Positions 46,605-57,912 of a stretch of 57,939 nt of DNA are shown in pieces. A model generated the notes under the pieces. That model ran no database searches. It was not told the DNA's origin and saw only the letters and a program-made list of their open reading frames with translations. Position 1 is the first letter of the stretch. Every line of letters begins with the position of its first letter. The translations under genes and the position numbers were made by a program. The DNA is from Limnothrix sp. RL_2_0. GTDB taxonomy: Bacteria; Cyanobacteriota; Cyanobacteriia; Cyanobacteriales; MRBY01. Location of the stretch: the NCBI GenBank assembly GCA_012033055.1, contig JAAUPR010000011.1:1-57939 (forward strand), written 5' to 3'.

Positions 46605-47057
46605 ATGACCCAGTTTTTTGAATTTGAACAAGATTTCATTGCATCAATGCGCTGTATTCCCATGGTGATGCGCTACAAACTCGATACCTGTGGCGTAAAA
46701 ATGAAGCTCGATCATTGGGGCAAATTTGACGATGCCGACAAGCAGAAATTTGTCGAAATGCCCTGCGAAAATCCGGTAGAAGTCCAGAATTACCATGAGG
46801 CTTTGCAGGCTTTAATTGAAGCAACAACAGGGACAAAAGCTAAAGTTTTAGATATCGATCCCAATCCCCTCTGGCTCCAAACAGAAATTCCCGCCCAAGT
46901 CCTCGAAAAAGCGAGTGAATGTAACGTGTCAATTTCCCCGGCGCAATGGCAATCTTTAACGCCACTCCAAAAATTTGCCCTGATTAAACTTAGCCGTCCC
47001 AGCCACGAAAACCATAATTTTGTGCCAGCAATGCGCGAATTTGGGATCGTTACTTAG
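46605..47057 (+). CDS. narM: Nitrate reductase-associated protein NarM
   Basis: 150 residues, one domain, starting FFEFEQDFIASMRCIPMVMR, the family hallmark. NarM is needed in some cyanobacteria for assembly or activity of the ferredoxin-type nitrate reductase NarB. It begins 4 bases after cysS and is probably in its operon. nirA, narB and nrt genes are not in the window. Its last 58 coding bases recur almost exactly at 48256-48313. Confidence 0.78.
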   Translation: MTQFFEFEQDFIASMRCIPMVMRYKLDTCGVKMKLDHWGKFDDADKQKFVEMPCENPVEVQNYHEALQALIEATTGTKAKVLDIDPNPLWLQTEIPAQVLEKASECNVSISPAQWQSLTPLQKFALIKLSRPSHENHNFVPAMREFGIVT

Positions 47058-47111
47058 GCAGATTGATAGTTATAAATTAGAGCTTTTTGATCCAAGATCT
47101 CAAAGAAATTT

Positions 47112-48164
47112 CTAGAAAAACATCAATAAAGACTCCAGATCAAGTCTTGGGTCTGGTAGATTTTCCTGGATACAATATTTTTCAAGAGACTTTTCCACAT
47201 TAGTCTCCTTATTCCAAGCGATATTGAGTTCACTACGCAAAAAATCATGCAAATAGTGCCGAAGTCCCCATGACCGCGTGTGTGTTCTTGTGGTTCTATT
47301 TAATCCTCTCTGGTCAAGATTAATATTAGGAAATTCACAATGATCAAAAAGAAAATTAAAATCATTTCTGAGAATTTTTTCATCTAGTCTTACTCTACTA
47401 AATTTATATTTTTCTCCAAATGTAATAGGTAAACGTATGCAAAGATATAACCGATGATTTGTATAATACGCTTCTTTTTTTGAAGTGAAGTCAACACAGA
47501 AGTTCGTCTTGCTTTTGCCAAATACAAAGACATTTTGTGTAAATTTAAACTCTTGAATACGATCATCAAAAGCTAGAATTTTTTCTCTGATTTTGAGAAT
47601 AAGATCAGTATTATATTTTTCAGAACGAGCTAATGCATTCATGAAAGCCTTTGATGCTGGAGGAATATCATGAGCTTCAGTTTGATTTAAAACAAAAGGG
47701 ATATCAAATTTATATGTAGCATTCTTTTTGAGCTTTTTTGCTATAAACTTCGGAGCTAAATCTCCTTGTATTGAAAACTCAAATAAATCAAATGAAAGAT
47801 TGCTATATTCACAATCAATCAAATTATCTTTATGAAATACAGGAGAAAGTACTTTTAAAATGACAGGTTGATTATAATCAATTTGATCCGAGAATGGTTT
47901 GACATTAAAAAGCGCATGATAATATCGTGTTAGCTGCTGGATTACATACCGATCCTCCGCATTTTTAAGCTCTATAATTACTAGCTGCTTATTAGAGGAA
48001 ACTGCTAAAATATCGCAAATATTTCCATTAATATAAAATTGCCTTTTAAGAGGGGTTAGATTGAAAATTGATTGAAGATTATCCCAAATAAAATTTTCTA
48101 ATGCGGCTTCACTCTCAAAAATCCATGTACCATTGCTTTTGGTAAGTTGATATGTTTTTTTCAT
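47112..48164 (-). CDS. NucS/RecB-like PD-(D/E)XK nuclease, AT-rich
   Basis: 350 residues. The N-terminal 110 residues form a nuclease core: FESEAALENFIWDNL supplies the first Glu, NGNICDILAV the metal Asp, and VIIELKNAEDRYVIQQLTRY the E-x-K and following helix, as in NucS/DUF91-type nucleases. The C-terminal two thirds have no family I know and probably recognise the target. It is clearly more AT-rich than its neighbours and lies between narM and a dead narM 3' end. ATG 48164 is chosen; a TTG at 48209 would read into that remnant. Likely horizontally acquired; a defence role is inference. Confidence 0.72.
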   Translation of the reverse strand: MKKTYQLTKSNGTWIFESEAALENFIWDNLQSIFNLTPLKRQFYINGNICDILAVSSNKQLVIIELKNAEDRYVIQQLTRYYHALFNVKPFSDQIDYNQPVILKVLSPVFHKDNLIDCEYSNLSFDLFEFSIQGDLAPKFIAKKLKKNATYKFDIPFVLNQTEAHDIPPASKAFMNALARSEKYNTDLILKIREKILAFDDRIQEFKFTQNVFVFGKSKTNFCVDFTSKKEAYYTNHRLYLCIRLPITFGEKYKFSRVRLDEKILRNDFNFLFDHCEFPNINLDQRGLNRTTRTHTRSWGLRHYLHDFLRSELNIAWNKETNVEKSLEKYCIQENLPDPRLDLESLLMFF

Positions 48165-48179
48165 GCTATGAAACAAAAT

Positions 48180-48323
48180 GGAATTTTCTATCGTACCAAA
48201 GTGACTCAAGATTCAGCGCGATTATGGTAGGAAATTCCGGCTAAACTAGAGCAACAACTTAGCCGTCTCAGCCACGAAAACCATGATTTTGTGCCAGCAA
48301 TGCGCGAATTTGGACTGATTTAG
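48180..48323 (+). pseudogene. Second, decayed 3' end of narM
   Basis: In one frame the sequence reads TKVTQDSARLW, a TAG, then EIPAKLEQ and QLSRLSHENHDFVPAMREF ending GLI and stop at 48321-48323. This follows narM residues from TKAKVLDIDPNPLW through EIPAQVLEK to LSRPSHENHNFVPAMREF, with one stop and one internal deletion. Bases 48256-48313 match 46987-47044 at 56 of 58 positions. It marks a duplication or recombination footprint. Confidence 0.88.
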
Positions 48324-48379
48324 TAAGGCGGCGATCGCCCCCCCCCCATTTTGCACCGGAAATAACTTGCTAATTTAGA

Positions 48380-48724
48380 TCAAAGTTGACGCAATTGCTC
48401 AAGATTTTTTAACTGCTGCGATCGCTCCTCTAATTGCATCTCAAAACGCTGACACACCAGCTCACACAGATCAAAAATGATCGGATCAGCGATGCGATAA
48501 TATACCGCCACCCCCTCCGGTTGCCGCTCCACAATCCCGGCTTGGGTCAAAATTTTTAAGTGCTTAGAAATATTTGCCTGCTTAAGACCAGTGTGCGCTA
48601 TTAATTCCGTCACATTTTTCTCCCCATCCTTAAGGGCGCACAGAACCTGAAGCCGACTCTGTTCCGAAAGAACTTTGAAATAATCAGAAATTTGGGCTAA
48701 AGCTGAAGCTGGAATAGTTAGCAT
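48380..48724 (-). CDS. ArsR family regulator, BigR/SqrR-like persulfide sensor
   Basis: 114 residues with the ArsR winged helix (VTELIAHTGLKQANISKHLKIL). Cys29 (QVLCALKDGE) and the pair Cys87/Cys91 (DLCELVC) sit where BigR/SqrR repressors keep the two thiols that form a sulfide-dependent tetrasulfide or disulfide. It is divergent from a persulfide-handling operon, which fits a repressor relieved by sulfane sulfur. The sensor assignment is inferred from position and Cys layout. Confidence 0.8.
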   Translation of the reverse strand: MLTIPASALAQISDYFKVLSEQSRLQVLCALKDGEKNVTELIAHTGLKQANISKHLKILTQAGIVERQPEGVAVYYRIADPIIFDLCELVCQRFEMQLEERSQQLKNLEQLRQL

Positions 48725-48770
48725 AACGGAATTTTTTTTGATTTTTCATCATTTCAGATTTATATTATAT

Positions 48771-48790
48771 AACTATATAGTGATATAGTT
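48771..48790. promoter_or_regulatory. Candidate ArsR operator
   Basis: Perfect inverted repeat AACTATAT-AGTG-ATATAGTT in an AT-rich run, 46 bases upstream of the regulator start and in front of the divergent operon. Such ATA/TAT-type dyads are the usual targets of ArsR-family repressors. Confidence 0.65.
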
Positions 48791-48970
48791 GAATAGAGTT
48801 CTTGCAAAAGTAAGTCAACGTGATCAAAAATCCTTCCTTGGAAAAGGTGTCCGCAGAAAAAAGAGGTTTCGAGAGGTGATACAGCCAACGGAACTCACCC
48901 ATAGCCCCCCAAGGAGGAGAACAAACAAGACTTATGCAAGAGGTCTAGTAATAGAGATAGGAAAAACCGT
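48791..48970 (+). promoter_or_regulatory. 180-nt leader of the persulfide operon, possible small ORF
   Basis: No long conserved gene is visible here. A GGTGA / TCACC pairing at about 48876-48900 and a strong AAGGAGGAG followed by a tiny open frame (ATG CAA GAG GTC, stop) near 48933 suggest a regulated leader. I could not assign it to a known riboswitch class. Confidence 0.3.
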
Positions 48971-49678
48971 ATGTTATTTCGTCAGCTTTTTGACCGAGAA
49001 AGCAGCACCTACAGTTATCTAGTGGCCGATCTTCTCACGGGGACAGCGCTATTGGTCGATTCTGTATTGGCGCAGGTGGAGCGGGATCGTCAGTTGCTAA
49101 AAGAACTGGGATTAACGCTGAGTTATTGCCTAGAAACCCATGTCCATGCGGATCACATCACAGGAGCGGCACAATTGCGATCTGCGACGGGCTGCATAAA
49201 TATCTTGCCGGAAGGCTCCCATGTGGACTGTGCGGATCGGTTAATCGGTCATGGCGAAATTTTACGGTTGGGAGAGGTGGACATTCAGGCGATCGCCACC
49301 CCCGGACACACCGATAGTCACATCGCTTATTTAGTAGATGGAACCCATTTATTGACGGGGGATGCCCTGCTAATCAGAGGTTGCGGGCGTACAGATTTCC
49401 AAAGTGGTGATGCCGGAGCATTATTCGACTCAGTGACAGAACGAATTTTCACCCTGCCTGACAGCACATCCATTTATCCCGGTCACGACTATCACGGGCA
49501 AACGGTGTCTTCCGTAGCGGAGGAAAAACGCTGGAACCCAAGGTTTGTCGGTCGAAATCGCGACGAGTTTAAACAATTTATGGACAACCCAAATTTGCCC
49601 TACCCACAAAAAATCATGGAAGCTGTTCCCGCTAATGAACGGTGTGGCAATCTTTCTAAAATCGCTGTCTCAATCTAA
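48971..49678 (+). CDS. ETHE1-type persulfide dioxygenase (metallo-beta-lactamase fold)
   Basis: 235 residues. The single-iron site is visible: HVHADH (57-62), H113 in TPGHTDS, D131 in TGDALLIRG and H172 in YPGHDYHG; GRTDFQSGD is the ETHE1/Blh signature. It oxidises glutathione persulfide to sulfite. Next genes encode a rhodanese and a sulfite/organosulfonate exporter, giving a complete sulfide-detoxification series. Confidence 0.92.
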   Translation: MLFRQLFDRESSTYSYLVADLLTGTALLVDSVLAQVERDRQLLKELGLTLSYCLETHVHADHITGAAQLRSATGCINILPEGSHVDCADRLIGHGEILRLGEVDIQAIATPGHTDSHIAYLVDGTHLLTGDALLIRGCGRTDFQSGDAGALFDSVTERIFTLPDSTSIYPGHDYHGQTVSSVAEEKRWNPRFVGRNRDEFKQFMDNPNLPYPQKIMEAVPANERCGNLSKIAVSI

Positions 49679-49715
49679 ATTTCCACTAAAAAAATAGTTT
49701 ATTAGGAATATTACG

Positions 49716-50258
49716 ATGACATTAAAAAATCCGATTCAATTACAAGAAATTGATGCACAAACATTAAAAGAATGGCAAGAAAAGGAAAACATTTTACTCG
49801 TAGATGTGCGGGAAGCTGTGGAGTATGCTGGCGAAAGAATTCCCGGCGCAATTTTACACCCATTGTCAAAATTTGAACCTCAACAAATCCAGCCCAATGA
49901 GGGTCAAAAGCTGGTGCTTTACTGTCAATCTGGAAACCGATCTACCCAAGCAGCTCAACAATATTTAGCAGCGGGTCTTAGCTCTGTGAGTCATTTAAAG
50001 GGTGGTATTCCAAGTTGGAAATCGGCGGGTTTTGCAGTTAAAAAAAATAAAAATGCACCGATTAGTCTCTTTCGACAGGTACAGATTTTAGCAGGTTTTT
50101 TAGTGTTCATTGGCACAGTTTTAGGGGTAATGGTTTCTCCCAATTTTTTGTTTTTGAGTGGGTTTGTAGGGGCTGGCTTAATGTTTGCTGGGATTACAAA
50201 TACTTGTGCAATGGGTATGTTACTTGCCAAACTTCCCTACAACCAAAATGCTAATTAA
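49716..50258 (+). CDS. Membrane-bound rhodanese (YgaP-like)
   Basis: 180 residues. Rhodanese domain (about 1-105) with catalytic Cys70 in the loop CQSGNRS; then two membrane helices in a DUF2892-type domain ending TNTCAMGMLLAKLPYN. It moves sulfane sulfur between thiols or thiosulfate at the membrane. It starts 37 bases after the dioxygenase gene, same operon. Confidence 0.92.
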   Translation: MTLKNPIQLQEIDAQTLKEWQEKENILLVDVREAVEYAGERIPGAILHPLSKFEPQQIQPNEGQKLVLYCQSGNRSTQAAQQYLAAGLSSVSHLKGGIPSWKSAGFAVKKNKNAPISLFRQVQILAGFLVFIGTVLGVMVSPNFLFLSGFVGAGLMFAGITNTCAMGMLLAKLPYNQNAN

Positions 50259-50273
50259 AGCCGGAAATAACAA

Positions 50274-51128
50274 ATGCTATTAGTCATTGGCTATCTGTTG
50301 GCGGTTTGTATTGGTATTAGTTTGGGATTGCTTGGTGGGGGCGGCTCGGTATTGGCGCTACCTGTGTTGGTTTACGTGATGAAGGTTGACCCAAAAGCGG
50401 CGATCGCCATGACGTTGGTGATTGTGGGGACAGTGAGCCTATTGGGCAGTATTCCCCATGCTCGACGGGGAAATCTCAACCTCAGAATAGTGGGTATTTT
50501 TGGAAGCGCGACGATGGTAGGCGCTTATCTCGGTGCCAAAATCGCGATGCTACCCTTTATCTCTAGTGCTTTTCAGATGCTGCTTTTTGGTTGTTCGATG
50601 TTGCTCGCGGCGGGTTTAATGATCTACCGGGCGGCGATCGCCAAACCGACTAACGACGAAGATGAATTAGAACAGATTCAATATGTCAAACCGGCTTGTA
50701 AATATTGCTGGCTCTGGCTGATGACCGAAGGCATTGGCGTAGGTATTTTGACCGGATTAGTTGGCGTGGGGGGAGGCTTTGCGATTATTCCTGCTTTAGT
50801 TTTATTAGGTAAAATTCCGATGAAACAGGCGATCGGCTCTTCGCTATTAATTATTGCTTGCAATTCCGTGGCGGGACTGATGGGCTATCTCGGACAGGTA
50901 GTCATCGACTGGCATCTCACGGTTTCTTTTACCTTTTTAGCCGGATGCGGCACAGTGATCGGCGCTTATTTGACCCAAAAGATTTCCGCCCAACAACTCC
51001 AAAAAGGCTTTGGCTATTTTTTACTGGCGATCGCCCTATTCGTACTCGCGCAAAATCGAGGCAGTTTAAAAAGCATAGACAACTCAGCCCTCCGCCCCAA
51101 GCCCAATGCAGTCGCCCTCAAGGGATAA
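50274..51128 (+). CDS. TauE/SafE family sulfite exporter
   Basis: 284 residues with eight membrane helices and two halves each containing a glycine-rich LLGGGGSVLALP / LVGVGGGFAIIP motif typical of TauE/SafE. Likely exports sulfite formed by the dioxygenase. It starts 15 bases after the rhodanese gene. Confidence 0.92.
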   Translation: MLLVIGYLLAVCIGISLGLLGGGGSVLALPVLVYVMKVDPKAAIAMTLVIVGTVSLLGSIPHARRGNLNLRIVGIFGSATMVGAYLGAKIAMLPFISSAFQMLLFGCSMLLAAGLMIYRAAIAKPTNDEDELEQIQYVKPACKYCWLWLMTEGIGVGILTGLVGVGGGFAIIPALVLLGKIPMKQAIGSSLLIIACNSVAGLMGYLGQVVIDWHLTVSFTFLAGCGTVIGAYLTQKISAQQLQKGFGYFLLAIALFVLAQNRGSLKSIDNSALRPKPNAVALKG

Positions 51129-52121
51129 GCAGGACGTGATCCGCTAGAGAGAGCCTACATCGTTTCACAGAGATCCTTGCCCGCAAAAAACCGTTGGCGA
51201 TCGCCGCCATTACCTTTATCGATGCGATGATTTCTTATCACTTTTATGGAGAGCAATAGAGCCTTATAAGAAAGCCGATAACCTACGATCCTTCCATCCC
51301 TCGAACATCATTACGCCCCCACCGTCCCCCCTTCCCCACAAAAAAACAAATTTCGTTCTTTACATAAAATGTTTACCATCAAAACAAAAGCCACTTTTTA
51401 TTAAGCATAAACACTTGCATTTCATACAAATCACAAAAAATAATGTCATCCAATCAACACAATCATTGTCCAATAAAAAGAATAACTCTCAACTTAAACA
51501 ACATAGATGTTTTTTTATATCCACCACAAAAAGATATTTAACAATTTCTTCAATATTTATTGCTATTTTTTTGTCGAAAATCTACACATTCTGTTTTTTA
51601 GTAAAGAAAAAATTCACATTCACGAAAGATAAAGTCACGATAAAAAACAACCTAAGTACAGCATTCATTCACCCAGCAACCACGTAAGTACCAACCCCAA
51701 AACACCTACAGAAATAGGACTCAAGGGGTTTTCAACGATAGTCAAACAAACAGAGACTTTATCTTTCTTAATGTCATACAAAGCGATAGTTAAGTTTGAT
51801 TTAAAGAAATTTACATGAATGTTTGGTTGATGGGAGGATAGAGGCATCCTAATAAGGAAAGTGGAAGTCGAGATACACAAGCTAAAGTGAAACTCAAAAT
51901 TCACAAATAAAATAGAAGCAAATCTATTGAGATTGTTTTTTGTTAGGTTTATCTTGACATTAAAGGGTTTGGCATTAGCATCTATCCCTTGTTGGAAAAT
52001 ATTGCTTTTCGAACAAAGAATGTAGATCCTAAGACAACTCAAATAGAAGCGTAAAAATAGCCTGTTAAATAGATCTTCTTTTCTTATCACTTCTCAAATC
52101 ACAAAACAACTAGGAAATAAG
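51129..52121. other. Very AT-rich intergenic region ahead of the protoglobin cluster
   Basis: Almost 1 kb without a convincing gene. The first ~110 bases hold a short open frame (ILARKKPLAIAAITFIDAM) ending at a stop near 51259 that has no start and may be a gene relic. From about 51340 the composition is extremely AT-rich with A runs on the plus strand; open frames in it (51415-51687 plus, 51665-52090 minus) look like chance. The region probably contains the promoter and leader of the cluster starting at 52122. Confidence 0.5.
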
Positions 52122-52676
52122 ATGTCTTTAGAACCACGCAGCTTCATGAAAAAGATGATCAGTAGAACGAACTTCAGCGATGAAGATCGGAGTCTACTGA
52201 ATGCAAATACAGAATGGGGAACCAGTATTGCCTCTGAAATGGCCGATCATTTTTATACTTACCTCGGTCGAGATGAGGAAATGAGTGCCATATTGAATGA
52301 AACAGAAGGACGTATTCACCGACTTCGGGAAACCTTTGTGGATTGGTTTAACGAAATGTTCACGGGGATGGATGCTTGGGGTGATGCCTATGCAGAACGT
52401 CGTTGGAAAATCGGCTTAATTCATGTACGCATTGGCATTGGCCCGCAACATGTTGTCCCTGCGATGGCGGTCGTTGTAGAGAAGCTTGGTCAGAAAGCCC
52501 TCGCTGATGGTAAGGGAGAGGCTGTGCGTACTGCGCTTGCCAAGATTGCAATGATTGATCTAACTTTCATTGAGCAAGCCTATATTGAGGTTTCTTCTAA
52601 TGCTGTTTTGCAGGAAACGGGTTGGACAGAAAAGCTTTTCCGGCGTTTGATTACAACCGGGGCAAATACTATGTAA
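52122..52676 (+). CDS. Single-domain protoglobin (globin-coupled-sensor type)
   Basis: 184 residues, all globin. The IGLIHVRIGIGPQHVVPAM segment holds the proximal haem ligand His101 and is the signature of protoglobins and globin-coupled sensors. No methyl-accepting, GGDEF or kinase output domain is attached, so the signal must be passed to a separate partner. Binding of O2, NO or CO is expected from the family. First gene of the 52122-56267 cluster. Confidence 0.88.
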   Translation: MSLEPRSFMKKMISRTNFSDEDRSLLNANTEWGTSIASEMADHFYTYLGRDEEMSAILNETEGRIHRLRETFVDWFNEMFTGMDAWGDAYAERRWKIGLIHVRIGIGPQHVVPAMAVVVEKLGQKALADGKGEAVRTALAKIAMIDLTFIEQAYIEVSSNAVLQETGWTEKLFRRLITTGANTM

Positions 52677-52747
52677 ATGGGCCTTGTGACTTGAATTTCA
52701 GCGAGATGTATCTAAACGAAAACTTATTAAGTGGAATGTAAATTATC

Positions 52748-53119
52748 ATGGCTATTGATGCAGCAAAATTATCGGCAATTCTTCAAGATTTCGTGTCTTC
52801 TACCAGTGATGTGCAAGGGGCGGCTTTAGTAACCCCTGATGGCTTATCTCTTTCTTCTGTTTTGCCTTCTACGATGGATGAGGAAAGGGTTGCGGCAATG
52901 TCTGCAGCAATGCTTTCTCTTGGTGAAAGAATTGGTTCTGAGCTTGTCCGGGGTACGATTCAACAGATTTATGTGGACGGGGACAAAGGATACGGGGTAC
53001 TCACTGGCTGCGGTGATGATTCTGTTCTCTTGGTCTTGGCGAATCGCACTGCAAAACAAGGTTTGTTGATGTTGGAGATCCGACGGGCGATCACTGAGCT
53101 TAAGCCGCTTTTTAGTTAA
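52748..53119 (+). CDS. Roadblock/LC7 family protein (MglB-like)
   Basis: 123 residues forming one Roadblock/LC7 domain: a helix at DAAKLSAILQDFVSSTSDV, beta strands GAALVTPDGLSLSS, and a C-terminal helix GLLMLEIRRAITEL. These proteins are dimeric GTPase-activating or scaffold partners of small GTPases such as MglA. The small GTPase gene lies 1.5 kb downstream on the same strand. Confidence 0.9.
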   Translation: MAIDAAKLSAILQDFVSSTSDVQGAALVTPDGLSLSSVLPSTMDEERVAAMSAAMLSLGERIGSELVRGTIQQIYVDGDKGYGVLTGCGDDSVLLVLANRTAKQGLLMLEIRRAITELKPLFS

Positions 53120-53239
53120 CGCTTCATTGTGGTTGTCAGGTAAATCTCGAGATCTAGCAACAATTTACCTGACGCGCTTATTTTTGTAGAAGTCTGATCT
53201 GCATAGACTTGATTTTTTTTCAATTACGAGGTGATTGCC

Positions 53240-53733
53240 ATGGCCGTGGCAGTCAAGTTATTACGGGATCAGTTAGGTGAGTTCAATAGTACTGTCTGTA
53301 CGAAAGTGATTGTTGTTGGTATTGAGGAGGCTCTGGGAGAAAAAGCAACGGCGATCGCCCTTGTGATGGCAGGTCGTCAACGGGGAAAAGTCTAGCACGC
53401 AAACTTGACTGAGTTGGCAAAGGAGAAATGCTGACTGTCGAAGAAATTACCACTCAAGCAGCAAGCGCTTTAGGCAAAGATATAGGTCGTTTATGCTTCA
53501 TTGATAGAGTGGAAGAAAAAGAAGGCGAAGATGGTCTTTTTTACCTTGTCTACACTACAAAAACTATCTGCTTTGCCGGAGAAGAAGAAAATTCCCCCCG
53601 ACTCTGCACCTATACTTTGGGAGCCATGCAAGGTTTTCTAGAAGCTTTTCTGAATAAACGTCTGAAAGGCAAACAAATTGAATCAGTATTGCGTTGTGGA
53701 GATTATGACGTATTGAAATACATTGCTCCATGA
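53240..53733 (+). pseudogene. V4R-type ligand-binding protein, copy 1 (frameshift plus stop)
   Basis: This copy starts MAVAVKLLRDQLGEFNSTVC and is closely similar to the intact copy at 53893. After GRQRGK one base is lost (AAAGTC against AAAGACC), giving a premature stop at 53393-53395. In the restored frame a TGA follows nine codons later in the segment LARKLD-stop-VGKGEML. The rest (53428-53733) is open and ends with a V4R-like core (SPRLCTYTLGAMQGFLEAF). Two independent lesions mean it is probably truly dead. Confidence 0.85.
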
Positions 53734-53892
53734 TGAAGCAATATCAGAGTGCTCATCTACAAAAAATAGGCTGTGCTATTTGCAAGAGAAAATGCCTAAA
53801 AGATTCACAAAACAAAATTTTAGATTTGCTTAAATTGCCGCTTCCTCTTGTAGACAGCAACACCGAAATACATATATTTGGAGATTATTTCT

Positions 53893-54387
53893 ATGACAGT
53901 CGCAGAAAAGTCCTTACGGCATACATTAGGGGATTTCAATAGCACCATTTGTACGAAAGCAATTGTTGTCGGTATTGAGGAAGCTCTAGGGGCAAAGGCG
54001 GCGGCGATCGCCCTCATCATGGCAGGACGTCAGAGAGGAAAAGACCTAGCACAAGAACTAGACGTAGTCAGCAAAGGAGAAACGCTAACGATCGAAGAAA
54101 TTGCCGCCCAAGCAGCACACGCCCTCGGTCAAGATGGAACCCGTTTATGCTTGATCGATAAAGTAGAAGAAAACAATAGCGGAGATGAACCTTTTTACCT
54201 TGTCTATACCAGAGAGACCATTTGTTCCACAGGAGAAGAAGAAAATTCTCCCCGACTCTGTACCTATACCCTAGGCGCAATCCAAGGTTTTCTAGAAGCT
54301 TTTTTAAATAAGCGCCTAAGAGGCGAACAAATTGAATCCGTATTACGTGGCAGTGATCATGATGTATTGAAATTTGTATCTCTGTGA
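53893..54387 (+). CDS. V4R-type ligand-binding protein, copy 2 (intact)
   Basis: 164 residues. ATG 53893 is chosen because it matches the start of the broken copy; five extra codons upstream are not conserved. The C-terminal SPRLCTYTLGAIQGFLEAF, ...GEQIESVLRGSDHDVLKF has the pattern of V4R (4-vinyl reductase, hydrocarbon-binding) domains, where a conserved core binds a small ligand or metal. The Cys of the V4R core is present; the second Cys position (xxDxCxF) reads HDVLKF. Ligand unknown. Confidence 0.7.
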   Translation: MTVAEKSLRHTLGDFNSTICTKAIVVGIEEALGAKAAAIALIMAGRQRGKDLAQELDVVSKGETLTIEEIAAQAAHALGQDGTRLCLIDKVEENNSGDEPFYLVYTRETICSTGEEENSPRLCTYTLGAIQGFLEAFLNKRLRGEQIESVLRGSDHDVLKFVSL

Positions 54388-54622
54388 CGACAAAAAAATC
54401 AGAGCTTCAAGCTACAAAGATACATTTCGACATTAAATATAATATATATTCCAATCACTATTGATACAATAGAACGAGTAACCGCTTCTTCACATAAAAA
54501 CTGCAACCTGTGATTTTTCTTGATTTCTGATAATTCAGTAAAAAAGATTTATTAGCAATAATAATCAAACATGTAATCAGGCAACTCAATCTCATTTTGA
54601 TTTAACAATAATCCAATCTACC

Positions 54623-55177
54623 ATGGAAATTATGACCTTGGTGGTCACTGGCCCCGTTGGTGCTGGCAAATCAACATTTATTCGCACCGTAAGTGAAATA
54701 GATGTAGTGGATACAGATCGACGCGCGACAGACGAGACCGCCTCTCTCAAGCATAGAACTACCGTTGCTTTTGACTTTGGACGTTTACAATTTGGTCGCA
54801 ATCGTGCATTACACTTGTACGGCACACCAGGGCAATCTCGCTTTGATTTTATGTGGGATATTTTAATCCGAAAAGCCCAAGGTTATGTCGTATTAGTCGC
54901 CGCTAATCGCCCCAATGAGTTTCGTTACTCTAGGCGAATTCTGACATTTATGCAGCATCGGAGCCGAGTGCCCCTCATTATTGCCATTAGTCATTCCGAC
55001 TGCGAAGGTGCTTGGACGCCCGAAAACATATTAGTTGCGATGGGTTACAACGCTCAGAAGCCAGCCCCTCCTGTTGTTATCGTAGATCCCCGCAATCGAG
55101 CTTCTGTTGCAAAATCAATTGTGAAATTAGTACAAAGTGCAATGCAATATACTCGTAGCTTTTCAAAGGCCGGATAA
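54623..55177 (+). CDS. Ras-like small GTPase (MglA/conservon type)
   Basis: 184 residues: G1 GPVGAGKS (10-17), a Thr pair in switch I (46-47), G3 YGTPGQSRF (66-74). G3 begins with Gly, not Asp, as is usual in this bacterial group. The G4 position, normally NKxD, reads SHSD (123-126), so base selectivity may be weak. No membrane anchor is seen. With the Roadblock/LC7 protein it should form a GTPase/regulator pair like MglA/MglB. Confidence 0.9.
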   Translation: MEIMTLVVTGPVGAGKSTFIRTVSEIDVVDTDRRATDETASLKHRTTVAFDFGRLQFGRNRALHLYGTPGQSRFDFMWDILIRKAQGYVVLVAANRPNEFRYSRRILTFMQHRSRVPLIIAISHSDCEGAWTPENILVAMGYNAQKPAPPVVIVDPRNRASVAKSIVKLVQSAMQYTRSFSKAG

Positions 55178-55331
55178 AGTATATTAATGATATGGGAACT
55201 AGATATTACTCATTAACCATTAGTTCTTATGTAATGAAAGATTTTCTTGAAATACTAAAATCATTCTGCCTTTAATTACGAAAATAGGATGAGTTTTATA
55301 GGCATTTCACACTTAACTCTGAGGCTTTAAA

Positions 55332-56267
55332 ATGTTTGGTTCTTTATCCGATTTTTCTCTAGGTGAATTGTTTCAGGTACTAGAACAAGGAGAAAAGACA
55401 GGAAGGCTGACAATTTATAGTGGAAGAAGAGGTGAATCCCAAAAAGATCGGATTTCTCAAACACCTCCCCGTAATTATTATATTTGGTTTCGACGGGGCT
55501 TCATTGTTGCGGCGGCCAATAGTCTAGATAACCAAGGTCTTTCTAAATTGATCGATCAGCGGTCATGGATTGAAGGGGGCACTTCTGTTCTGGCACCGGG
55601 TTTTTGTAATGTGAATTTGCCTTTGGGAATTTGTTTTAAATCCCATGGTTTGATTACTGCAGAACAGCTTAAATTATTATTTTCAGTGCAGGTTTTACGT
55701 CAAGTTTGCCAGTTGTTTACACTGCTGCATGGTCGCTATCATTTTGATGAGAAAGCGCCTCTTGCGTATCCGGAGATGACTGGTTTGAGTGCGCCAGCAA
55801 CCGATGTCACGTTGGCGGGTTTGAGAAATTTAAAAGACTGGTCGGCTCTAGAGGATAAGTTACCTGAGCCAGATTCTGCGATTTTAAGTCTTGTGGAAGG
55901 GAAGCCTCATTTGAAGTTGAATCAGTCAGAGTTGAGGGTCTGGGAATTTGCGGATGGTACGGTTGCTCTGAAGGATGTTGCAGCTCGGCTTGATTTGTCT
56001 TTGGAGAAGGTGCGTAAAATCGCATTTCGTCTGAGTGTGGTCAATCTTGCGGAGGAGTTTCCGCTATTGATCTCGGCTTCGGACATGATGAATCTGAGTC
56101 TGGATGATGAGTTTGTGGATGATGAGAATAATCTCTTTTTCATGGAAGAGCAGGCGGTGAAGGCAGAGGCTCCTGTGCGCAAAAGTAATAGTCAGGAGTT
56201 TATTGCTCCTCCTCCGATGAGTGATGATTTTCTGCAGGAGCTAATGAGGAGTCTCAATAATTCGTAA
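55332..56267 (+). CDS. DUF4388 (PatA-N-like) domain protein
   Basis: 311 residues. The N-terminal FGSLSDFSLGELFQVLEQGEKTGRLTIYSG is the DUF4388 signature, a domain shared with PatA-type regulators and with proteins that sit beside bacterial GTPase/Roadblock genes. The C-terminal half has a helical segment (GTVALKDVAARLDLSLEKV) like a degenerate winged helix, and an acidic tail. No receiver domain is attached. Last gene of the cluster. Confidence 0.82.
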   Translation: MFGSLSDFSLGELFQVLEQGEKTGRLTIYSGRRGESQKDRISQTPPRNYYIWFRRGFIVAAANSLDNQGLSKLIDQRSWIEGGTSVLAPGFCNVNLPLGICFKSHGLITAEQLKLLFSVQVLRQVCQLFTLLHGRYHFDEKAPLAYPEMTGLSAPATDVTLAGLRNLKDWSALEDKLPEPDSAILSLVEGKPHLKLNQSELRVWEFADGTVALKDVAARLDLSLEKVRKIAFRLSVVNLAEEFPLLISASDMMNLSLDDEFVDDENNLFFMEEQAVKAEAPVRKSNSQEFIAPPPMSDDFLQELMRSLNNS

Positions 56268-56560
56268 GGGCTAGATTTGGGGGTCTTCTGATTGCTGGGT
56301 CATGGGTTGTTTGGGATCTGTGGGTGGCGATCGCCGCCTAATATATTCAGTGCAGATTTTTGATCTTATAAGCTTAGACAGAAAAACATTGTCTGTCTTC
56401 GAGTAGATAGAAACTCTCAATGGGTAAAGGGAAAATGTTTCTACAATCTAAATTAGTATCAGCGATCCCTTATTTTATTGGATTCATTTTGGAGTCCCCT
56501 CCGAAACTGAGCTACATTTAAAGACCCATTGACCTTTGCAAATCCATCGAGGCACGGACG
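56268..56560. other. dnaA upstream region, no DnaA boxes recognised
   Basis: 293 bases between the DUF4388 gene and dnaA. A HIP1 site and an AT-rich stretch are present. I find no TTATCCACA-like boxes, so an origin immediately upstream is not supported. Confidence 0.4.
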
Positions 56561-57912
56561 TTGACGCAAGATCCCCAGCGATTATGGCAAGAAGTTCTCG
56601 TCAAACTCAAGCAACAGTTGAGCCGTCCGACCTTTGAAACGTGGATTCAACCGACGACTATTCAGCAGTGGCAAGGGGATGAGATTGTCCTCTGTGCGCC
56701 CAATGCTTTCGTCCTAAACCATATCCAAAAATATTATGGGGCAATGATTGCTGAGACGATCGCCGAACTACTCCAGCACCCCATTCAGATTCGCATTACT
56801 TCCCCAGAAGGCAATACATTGTCCGCAACCCAGAGTTTTTATAGCTCCCAAGGGAATGGCATTTTGCGGCGATCGCCTAAAAGAATTCAGAACTAAACTC
56901 CAAATATATATTTTCCCGTTTCGTTGTTGGCCCCACCAACCGCATGGCCCATGCCGCATCCCTTGCCGTCGCAGAATCACCGGGTCGAGACTTTAATCCC
57001 CTCGTCTTATGTGGCGGTGTTGGACTCGGTAAAACTCACCTCATGCAGGCGATCGGTCATTACCGCCTAGATGTGCAAGCTGATGCCAAAATTTTTTACG
57101 TCTCCACCGAGCAATTCACCAACGACCTAATCGCCGCCATCCGCAAAGATAGCTTACAAACATTCCGCGAACATTACCGCACTGCCGATGTGCTCCTAGT
57201 GGATGACATTCAGTTCATTGAGGGCAAAGAATATACCCAAGAAGAATTTTTCTACACCTTCAACACCCTCCACGAAGCCGGGAAGCAAATTGTCCTCGCC
57301 AGCGATCGCCCCCCGAACCAGATCCCCGGTTTACAACAACGCCTATCCTCAAGATTTTCCATGGGCTTAATCGCCGACATCCAGCCTCCTGACCTCGAAA
57401 CCCGGATGGCAATTTTGCAAAAAAAAGCCGAAGCCGAAAATATTCACCTCTCACGCTCCGTCATCGAATACATCGCCACCCATTACACCTCCAACATCCG
57501 TGAACTCGAAGGCGCACTCCTCCGTGCCGTCACCCACATCGCCATTTCCGGCTTACCGATGACCGTCGAAAACCTCGCACCCATCCTCAATCCCACCGTC
57601 GAATATGCCCCCGCAGCCCCAGACCTAATCCTACAAATCGTGTCAGAAGCCACCACCATCAGCATCGACGATCTTAAAGGCACATCCCGCCGCCGCGAAA
57701 TCAGTACTGCCCGTCAAATAGCCATGTACCTAATGCGTCAACATACCGATCTTAGCTTGCCTCGCATCGGCGCAGTGTTCGGCGGCAAAGACCACACCAC
57801 CGTCATGTATAGCTGCGACAAAATTGGTCAACTTCTCACCAAAGATCAAAAAACATCCCAGCTAGTTAGCCAGATCAGCGATCGCATCAATCACCACCAT
57901 CGGACGCTCTAG
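56561..57912 (+). pseudogene. dnaA: Chromosomal replication initiator DnaA, frame broken in the linker
   Basis: Frame 1 starts at TTG 56561 (MTQDPQRLWQEVLVKLK), covers domain I and part of the linker, and stops at 56894-56896. The continuation lies in another frame that is closed by TAA at 56878-56880. It reads [17 protein letters not shown], then [18 protein letters not shown], Walker [13 protein letters not shown], Walker [13 protein letters not shown], and domain [16 protein letters not shown], ending at 57912. A single missing or extra base between 56881 and 56893 joins the halves. Translation of an AAA+/domain IV-only protein from ATG 56944 is possible but has no good ribosome site. Confidence 0.92.

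Follow-up and report, generated by a model that had tools for sequence, protein, structure and literature searches.

A stand-alone haem globin in a conserved Roadblock/LC7-small GTPase gene cluster of cyanobacteria

In Myxococcus xanthus and Thermus thermophilus, the gene for the small GTPase MglA adjoins that for the Roadblock/LC7 protein MglB, and the conservons (CvnA-D) of Streptomyces and Mycobacterium likewise combine an LC7 protein and a GTPase with a third small protein. The signals that feed the GTPases of MglA Groups 2-5 are still largely open. Globins of the haem-sensor family are known from globin-coupled sensors such as HemAT, DosC and AfGcHK, where the output domain is part of the same protein. 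Here we describe a gene cluster of the cyanobacterium Limnothrix sp. RL_2_0, which groups a free protoglobin with a Roadblock/LC7 protein, a V4R-fold protein, a small GTPase and a DUF4388 protein. The cluster lies in a stretch of 57,939 nucleotides, termed “the window” in the following (assembly GCA_012033055.1, contig JAAUPR010000011.1, positions 1-57,939, forward strand).

We consider it probable, though by no means assured, that the cluster represents a conserved cyanobacterial small-GTPase module, i.e., a sensor-fed switch of the MglA/MglB type that has a stand-alone haem globin among its inputs. The original prediction, made from the letters of the window, held that no described system was known in which a stand-alone protoglobin is the apparent first gene. 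This stands insofar as no describing paper was found: the search, which left most subscription journals outside, returned neither a paper joining protoglobin and roadblock proteins in cyanobacteria or DUF4388, roadblock and GTPase proteins, nor one mentioning Tlr1989, the corresponding globin of Thermosynechococcus. The arrangement suggests a Roadblock-GTPase switch of a known type, here equipped with separate haem and V4R inputs, and the genome names candidates for the inputs that act on such GTPases. Each is encoded beside LC7: a haem globin and a V4R protein, joined in some lineages by a hemerythrin-family protein.

Gene inventory and conservation across cyanobacteria

A check of the open reading frames (ORFs) at 52122-56267 upheld the predicted set of five co-directional genes plus one broken copy, all on the plus strand, with families assigned by Pfam or, for the V4R protein, by predicted fold:

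52122..52676, plus strand: stand-alone protoglobin, 184 residues, proposed haem gas or redox sensor (Pfam Protoglobin, PF11563, 80.6 bits, cut-off 25)
52748..53119, plus strand: Roadblock/LC7 protein (MglB/CvnB-like), 123 residues, proposed hub and GTPase regulator (Robl_LC7, 59.8 bits, cut-off 23)
53240..53733, plus strand: tandem duplicate of the V4R-fold gene, broken (relative to the intact copy, one base is deleted and, apart from that, a TGA stop is present)
53893..54387, plus strand: V4R/TRAPPC3-fold protein, 164 residues, proposed second ligand-binding input (fold predicted by AlphaFold 2, AF2)
54623..55177, plus strand: small GTPase with motifs as in MglA Groups 2-5, 184 residues (ATP_bind_1, 56.2 bits, cut-off 27)
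55332..56267, plus strand: DUF4388 protein, 311 residues, proposed output adaptor (DUF4388, 90.5 bits, cut-off 25)

In the genome of 4,131,928 bases the searches return a single globin, LC7, GTPase of this kind and intact V4R gene, all within approximately 3 kb; DUF4388 occurs in six other places. Fusions of two among the five families were not found in the ORF sets examined.

Conservation was assessed in 196 genomes of the order, in 386 genomes of the phylum and at named loci representing the best 80 of 150 relatives, all of them cyanobacterial; at the latter, families were tallied within 6 kb of the globin, and some of the contigs are short. Among the order genomes, the globin is present in 26, every one of which also encodes the GTPase, compared with 15 of the 170 others (one being a weak match). 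As many as 25 of 35 globin places lie no more than 5 kb from a GTPase, where 0.125 would be expected, an approximately 200-fold excess over chance, and in the three globin genomes that have no such pair (G024, G050, G187) LC7 is found beside the globin. Across the phylum, 32 genomes contain both families, four the globin only, five the GTPase only and 345 neither. The globin-only exceptions comprise a fragment of 41 residues (G269), two larger fusion proteins with a GGDEF-like (G198) or STAS-like (G227) second half, and a genome in which globin, V4R and a shortened DUF4388 are left without LC7 or GTPase (G384).

At the 80 named loci, the commonest sets are globin, LC7, GTPase and DUF4388 (27 loci), the same with V4R (22), globin, LC7 and GTPase (11) and these three with V4R (5); the globin stands alone in 5. 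LC7 accompanies the globin in about 70 of the 80; the tally by family set gives 75, a few of them on contigs that bear globin and LC7 alone. Neighbouring pairs are encoded on the same strand in 248 of 249 cases, at a median gap of 138 bases, and yet the gene order varies: Leptolyngbya and Nodosilinea types have globin-LC7-GTPase-DUF4388, Anabaena and Dolichospermum types LC7-GTPase-DUF4388-(V4R)-globin, and Calothrix and Rivularia types DUF4388-GTPase-LC7-globin, among many other orders. A one-strand grouping that is retained through rearrangement is good evidence of joint function. That unrelated or housekeeping genes lie together here by chance is thus hardly credible: the moderate gaps in the window and the differing gene orders would fit such a neighbourhood, but the linkage far above expectation, kept through rearrangement, does not, nor does the persistence of the gene set on an island that the window genome likely acquired.

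The genome census did not return the rare co-occurrence that the original prediction had named as an adverse outcome. Of the two things that it proposed to check across genomes, the five families within 6 kb do form a conserved unit, to which the globin regularly belongs, but their order is not fixed. The globin is the apparent first gene of the cluster in the window and in Leptolyngbya-type loci, whereas it is often the last one in Nostocales.

Clusters without a globin usually read V4R-LC7-DUF4388-GTPase. LC7 is the commonest gene directly 3' of the globin (63 cases) and of V4R (33 cases), and some loci repeat sensor-LC7 units, e.g., V4R-LC7-globin-LC7-GTPase-DUF4388 at locus L223. Relatives of a helical carotenoid protein (N-terminal domain of the orange carotenoid protein) are encoded near LC7-GTPase or V4R in globin-less loci (L112, L113, L108, L097, L103, L231; Pfam was run on the L112 copy only). 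Next to four clusters (L123:7131-7946, L130:9013-9798, L187, L189) there is a recurring protein whose sequence resembles that of periplasmic phosphate/phosphonate-binding proteins. Other candidates for constant partners, namely a NarL-type regulator, a histidine kinase, DnaG, NB-ARC and saccharopine-dehydrogenase-like proteins, were restricted to related lineages and therefore rejected.

Sensor candidates, GTPase core and proposed output protein

The protoglobin consists of a globin domain (residues 9-157 of 184) without a fused output domain, as predicted, and it contains no cysteine. All 26 relatives that were aligned share the proximal haem ligand H101 and the pair F44-Y45, and the proximal histidine occurs in a fixed pattern in 111 of 113 sequences; the other two are fusions that have the histidine within a variant motif. 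Beyond the Pfam domain, the tail comprising residues 161-184 shows a mean entropy of 0.78 bits, compared with 0.81 bits for residues 81-100 preceding the proximal histidine, and by this measure it appears conserved as strongly as the haem pocket. The nearest solved relatives by profile are Tlr1989 (PDB 8h17), to which the window globin is related over its full length, a globin (2w31), a globin-coupled histidine kinase and HemAT. The stand-alone haem globin is likely a gas sensor, albeit a putative one.

In a tree the window globin groups with Leptolyngbya-type sequences at weak support. Genomes G012 and G158 encode within the same gene set a protoglobin that is 24% identical to that of the window (L064:9466-10017, L065:1822-2373); the divergent globin in the same place suggests replacement or separate recruitment.

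Globin-fold and V4R proteins also occur together in the cyanobacterial slr0144-slr0149 cluster (PAP/BBAG), which is linked to photosystem assembly, and a kinship of the two clusters might be considered on this basis. Yet, that cluster comprises a bilin-type, bilin-associated globin (in some cases with a CXRD motif), an Fe-S protein and a pair of clade A and clade B V4R proteins, and its published description is without LC7, GTPase or DUF4388 (PMC10151467), while the V4R copies of the window are tandem duplicates. We judge such kinship very improbable; membership in that cluster, or a bilin-type globin, is ruled out, as the haem histidine is kept, the globin lacks cysteine and no Fe-S ORF is present.

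Many hemerythrins bind O2. A hemerythrin-family gene accompanies the cluster in 13 loci (L220, L219, L222, L117, L118, L120-L123, L125, L129, L133, L176), in 12 of which it directly follows DUF4388 at a distance of 7-350 bases. One of them, L220 of the Thermosynechococcus genome G259, encodes globin, LC7, GTPase, DUF4388 and hemerythrin in succession, separated by gaps of 72, 34, 24 and 13 bases; its hemerythrin scores 54.6 bits with Pfam Hemerythrin, and its globin is identical to Tlr1989 in 184 of 184 residues. Two unrelated families capable of binding O2 thus flank the same GTPase core, which is the strongest hint that oxygen or a related gas is the signal.

The V4R protein scores 15.9 bits with Pfam, below the cut-off of 31, and weak Pfam matches were obtained for 6 of 31 relatives; a V4R profile gave no match among PDB sequences, and membership was seen by fold search instead. 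The AF2 model (mean predicted local distance difference test, pLDDT, 85.7) matches the phenol-sensor domains of MopR, PoxR and DmpR at Z 15.4-16.5 (MopR 16.5 over 145 residues), followed by Thorarchaeal TRAPPC3 (Z 13.8, 148 residues), BcsD/AxCeSD (approximately 13.5), Bet3 (13) and H-NOX (8.4). Judged by this predicted fold, the protein clearly belongs to the V4R superfamily despite its Pfam score. In the alignment of relatives Glu108 is invariant, Cys111 and Cys123 are nearly so, and Cys86 is variable; in PoxR and Thor-TRAPPC3 the corresponding region, with its Cys-rich metal site, binds zinc (PMC10933270). The intact gene most likely starts at the ATG at 53893, just 3' of a ribosome-site-like GGAG. 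The broken copy is identical to it in 379 of 498 aligned columns (76% DNA identity) and turns up as split matches with stops in a V4R search of the genome.

Both potential sensors named originally, globin and V4R, are present in the cluster, but the role of V4R goes beyond that of a companion to the globin, as at 20 places a V4R gene lies next to the GTPase without a globin nearby. These places, together with V4R-LC7 pairs that exist without a GTPase (L232, L233, L235), would also suit a system in which V4R is the core input of LC7, GTPase and DUF4388, and in which the globin is an add-on with a job of its own, such as NO or O2 detoxification, located nearby since both are wanted at low oxygen. 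Free globins can indeed be NO dioxygenases in other organisms. We regard this alternative as rather unlikely, since every globin genome of the order sample encodes the GTPase, LC7 usually adjoins the globin directly, V4R is missing from many globin clusters (27 and 11 of the 80 loci), and no reductase gene recurs among the cluster neighbours.

The core of the cluster bears motifs of the MglA/MglB family, in agreement with the original view of an MglA-like GTPase and an LC7-type partner. T. thermophilus MglA is the best PDB match to the GTPase by sequence, and the Ras and Roc families score just under their cut-offs. The G3 motif reads GTPGQ in 115 of 121 relatives, the G2 motif KxxTTVA, with threonine replacing arginine, in 111, and both are found in the window; judged by GTPGQ in G3 and TT in G2, the GTPase would fit MglA Groups 2-5 as defined by Wuichet and Sogaard-Andersen (PMC4316618). 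G4 reads [TS]HxD in 117 of the 121 (SHSD in the window), and none has the standard [NT]KxD of MglA Group 5, a motif that is reported for Groups 1, 4 and 5 (PMC4316618). Since the THxD-type G4 differs from the reported one, the guanine specificity of the GTPase is putative. The PDB relatives of LC7 include CvnB5 (E 5.9e-10) and Asgard roadblock proteins. The motif PDG is found in 117 of 125 LC7 relatives and supplies the Asp-Gly pair that the LC7 partners of Groups 2-5 are reported to carry. In Calothrix, Scytonema and related loci (L159, L169, L157, L137, L182, L147 and others) the LC7 ORF carries a variable N-terminal extension of approximately 50-130 residues.

The DUF4388 protein (AF2 mean pLDDT 86.3) is composed of an N-terminal DUF4388 domain, a winged helix (residues 172-248), a disordered linker and a conserved C-terminal helix (residues 298-310, consensus SFLQNLVGFLK in a tail alignment). 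A Foldseek search with the whole model gave no match at E 0.001, the N-terminal domain not having been searched alone. The winged helix is closest to NPRL3 and NPRL2 of GATOR1 (Z 8.8-10.3 over 64-79 residues); in the predicted model this concerns a small domain and appears to be a likeness of fold only, implying no function. The winged helix might instead bind DNA, the cluster forming a conservon-like complex at the membrane or on DNA that regulates gene expression, and a complex of GTPase, LC7 and another, functionally uncharacterized protein is indeed known from actinobacterial conservons (PMC4316618). This reading is improbable in our view, given that ordinary, DNA-binding winged helices match less well (Z 5-7) than NPRL2 and NPRL3 (Z approximately 10) and that the cluster lacks a membrane kinase.

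We take DUF4388 and PATAN to be the same or closely related domains. PATAN-domain regulators of Synechocystis are tied to pilus control, and PixE is reported to bind PilB1 (PMC7690835). Given the direct action of LC7 proteins on MglA-type GTPases and the link of PATAN regulators to pili, pilus control would be a reasonable guess for the output. The original prediction, which pointed to gas- or redox-dependent control of motility, polarity or gene expression, is supported in part, with motility or polarity as putative outputs.

In the sensor-fed switch that we favour, the haem of the protoglobin would bind O2, NO or CO, or shift its redox state, and the signal would pass to the neighbouring LC7 protein, probably via the conserved C-terminal tail (residues ~161-184). 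LC7, being MglB-like, would control whether the small GTPase carries GTP or GDP. The DUF4388 protein may read the GTPase with its C-terminal helix or its winged helix and act on a target, e.g., the machinery of type IV pili or gene expression. For this LC7-GTPase core, V4R would be a further source of ligand-dependent input, alongside the globin or in its place. Free protoglobins would thereby gain a role, and oxygen or NO would be linked to GTPase control in oxygen-producing bacteria. V4R, roadblock and small GTPase would moreover act within a single bacterial operon, which would be relevant to the origin of eukaryotic GTPase regulation. A direct test is feasible with about five small soluble proteins, one of which (Tlr1989, 8h17) comes from a thermophile and has a solved structure.

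Several observations weigh against this switch or against its expression from a single transcript. The association of globin and GTPase (Fisher p 4e-22 for the order, 4e-37 for the phylum) was calculated with shared ancestry ignored, and second globin copies without LC7 or GTPase nearby are found at L055, L056 and L059-L061. The intact genes of the window are separated by 71-350 bases, and a promoter/terminator scan of the window yielded consensus sites no more often than in shuffled sequences. Finally, the two LC7 copies at L223, beside V4R and beside the globin, are 99% identical, and LC7 therefore looks like a shared hub rather than a sensor-specific adaptor. Sensor-specific LC7 lines were considered and rejected: sensor labels cluster on the LC7 tree, but in addition to the near-identical L223 copies, identities across loci are not split by sensor.

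A wider and more tentative idea is that the cluster is a gas-gated bacterial counterpart of eukaryotic GTPase-regulating assemblies, in which a globin (in some genomes together with hemerythrin) drives a GTPase via regulators of TRAPP, Ragulator and GATOR1 fold (V4R/TRAPPC3, roadblock and the NPRL-like winged helix) within one operon. Possible as this is, we would not expect it to hold in full.

Genomic island and local history

The globin cluster is located on an island close to dnaA, the further features of which are:

51129..52121, plus strand: AT-rich, non-coding sequence 5' of the globin gene, candidate promoter region (G+C 0.345)
47045..56540: island of ~9.5 kb between the Nitr_red_assoc gene and dnaA, which carries a cluster for sulfur handling in addition to that of the globin

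In two genomes of the same genus (G072, G106) the Nitr_red_assoc homologue directly adjoins dnaA, whereas in the window some 9.5 kb lie between dnaA and this gene (46605-47057). The island has a G+C content of 0.411 compared with 0.51 for dnaA, and the five other genomes of the genus lack globin, GTPase and V4R genes of the types seen here. The island and its globin cluster were likely acquired by transfer; alternatively, loss may have occurred in the five other genomes.

A stretch of 65 bases (48256-48320) resembles the region just 5' of dnaA in G072 (L213:2218-2282), possibly a trace of insertion, and another match to this dnaA-upstream region ends at 47044. The same island carries at 48380-51128 a cluster of the sulfide/persulfide type, i.e., an ArsR-type regulator on the opposite strand, a metallo-beta-lactamase fold protein, a rhodanese with a YgaP-like tail and a TauE exporter. 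An ORF at 47112-48209, on the opposite strand, shows weak similarity to the nuclease family NucS_C (24.7 bits) and weak matches to the PADLOC candidate defence family PDC-S18. The dnaA gene itself (56561-57912), intact in the five other genomes of the genus, is interrupted near 56879, where one base is deleted, either by mutation or through an error of the draft assembly. Behind the window, the contig (approximately 57940-58136) continues with an N gap, followed by 127 bases that repeat the end of dnaA exactly, probably a scaffolding artefact.

Comparison with described systems

The Limnothrix globin shares its family with the haem domains of the globin-coupled sensors, but it is free, and its putative output is encoded by separate genes. 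The solved globin Tlr1989 of Thermosynechococcus (PDB 8h17) belongs to the same family and is encoded in just such a cluster.

V4R proteins of the TRAPPC3 (Bet3) type, roadblock proteins and small GTPases are also known from Asgard archaea. The cluster resembles them in the MopR/TRAPPC3 fold of its V4R protein and in that the V4R gene adjoins roadblock and GTPase genes; in contrast, such genes are generally located outside operons in the Asgard strain MK-D1 (PMC10933270), while here they are linked and joined by a haem globin.

With the MglA-MglB polarity switch the cluster shares the adjoining genes for GTPase and LC7 protein, and PATAN-type proteins are reported near some Group 1 and 5 mglA genes (PMC4316618). 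It differs in the G3 motif, GTPGQ instead of the TVPGQ of Group 1, and in its inputs, which are a haem globin and/or V4R; RomR, Frz and SgmX were not seen nearby.

The conservons are similar in combining LC7, a GTPGQ GTPase and a third small protein, and the LC7 of the window matches CvnB5. Moreover, pentapeptide-repeat-like genes, as read from the sequence, adjoin LC7 and GTPase in two related loci (L097:8050-9135, L103:8154-9236) and recall MfpA, which follows a mycobacterial conservon (PMC4316618). Unlike the conservons, the cluster has no ORF for a CvnA histidine kinase at 51129-56540, it contains DUF4388 in place of the CvnC protein, and its G4 motif is THxD (SHSD in the window) rather than NxFD. 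By this comparison, the cluster would work like an MglA/MglB or conservon switch, yet is no conservon.

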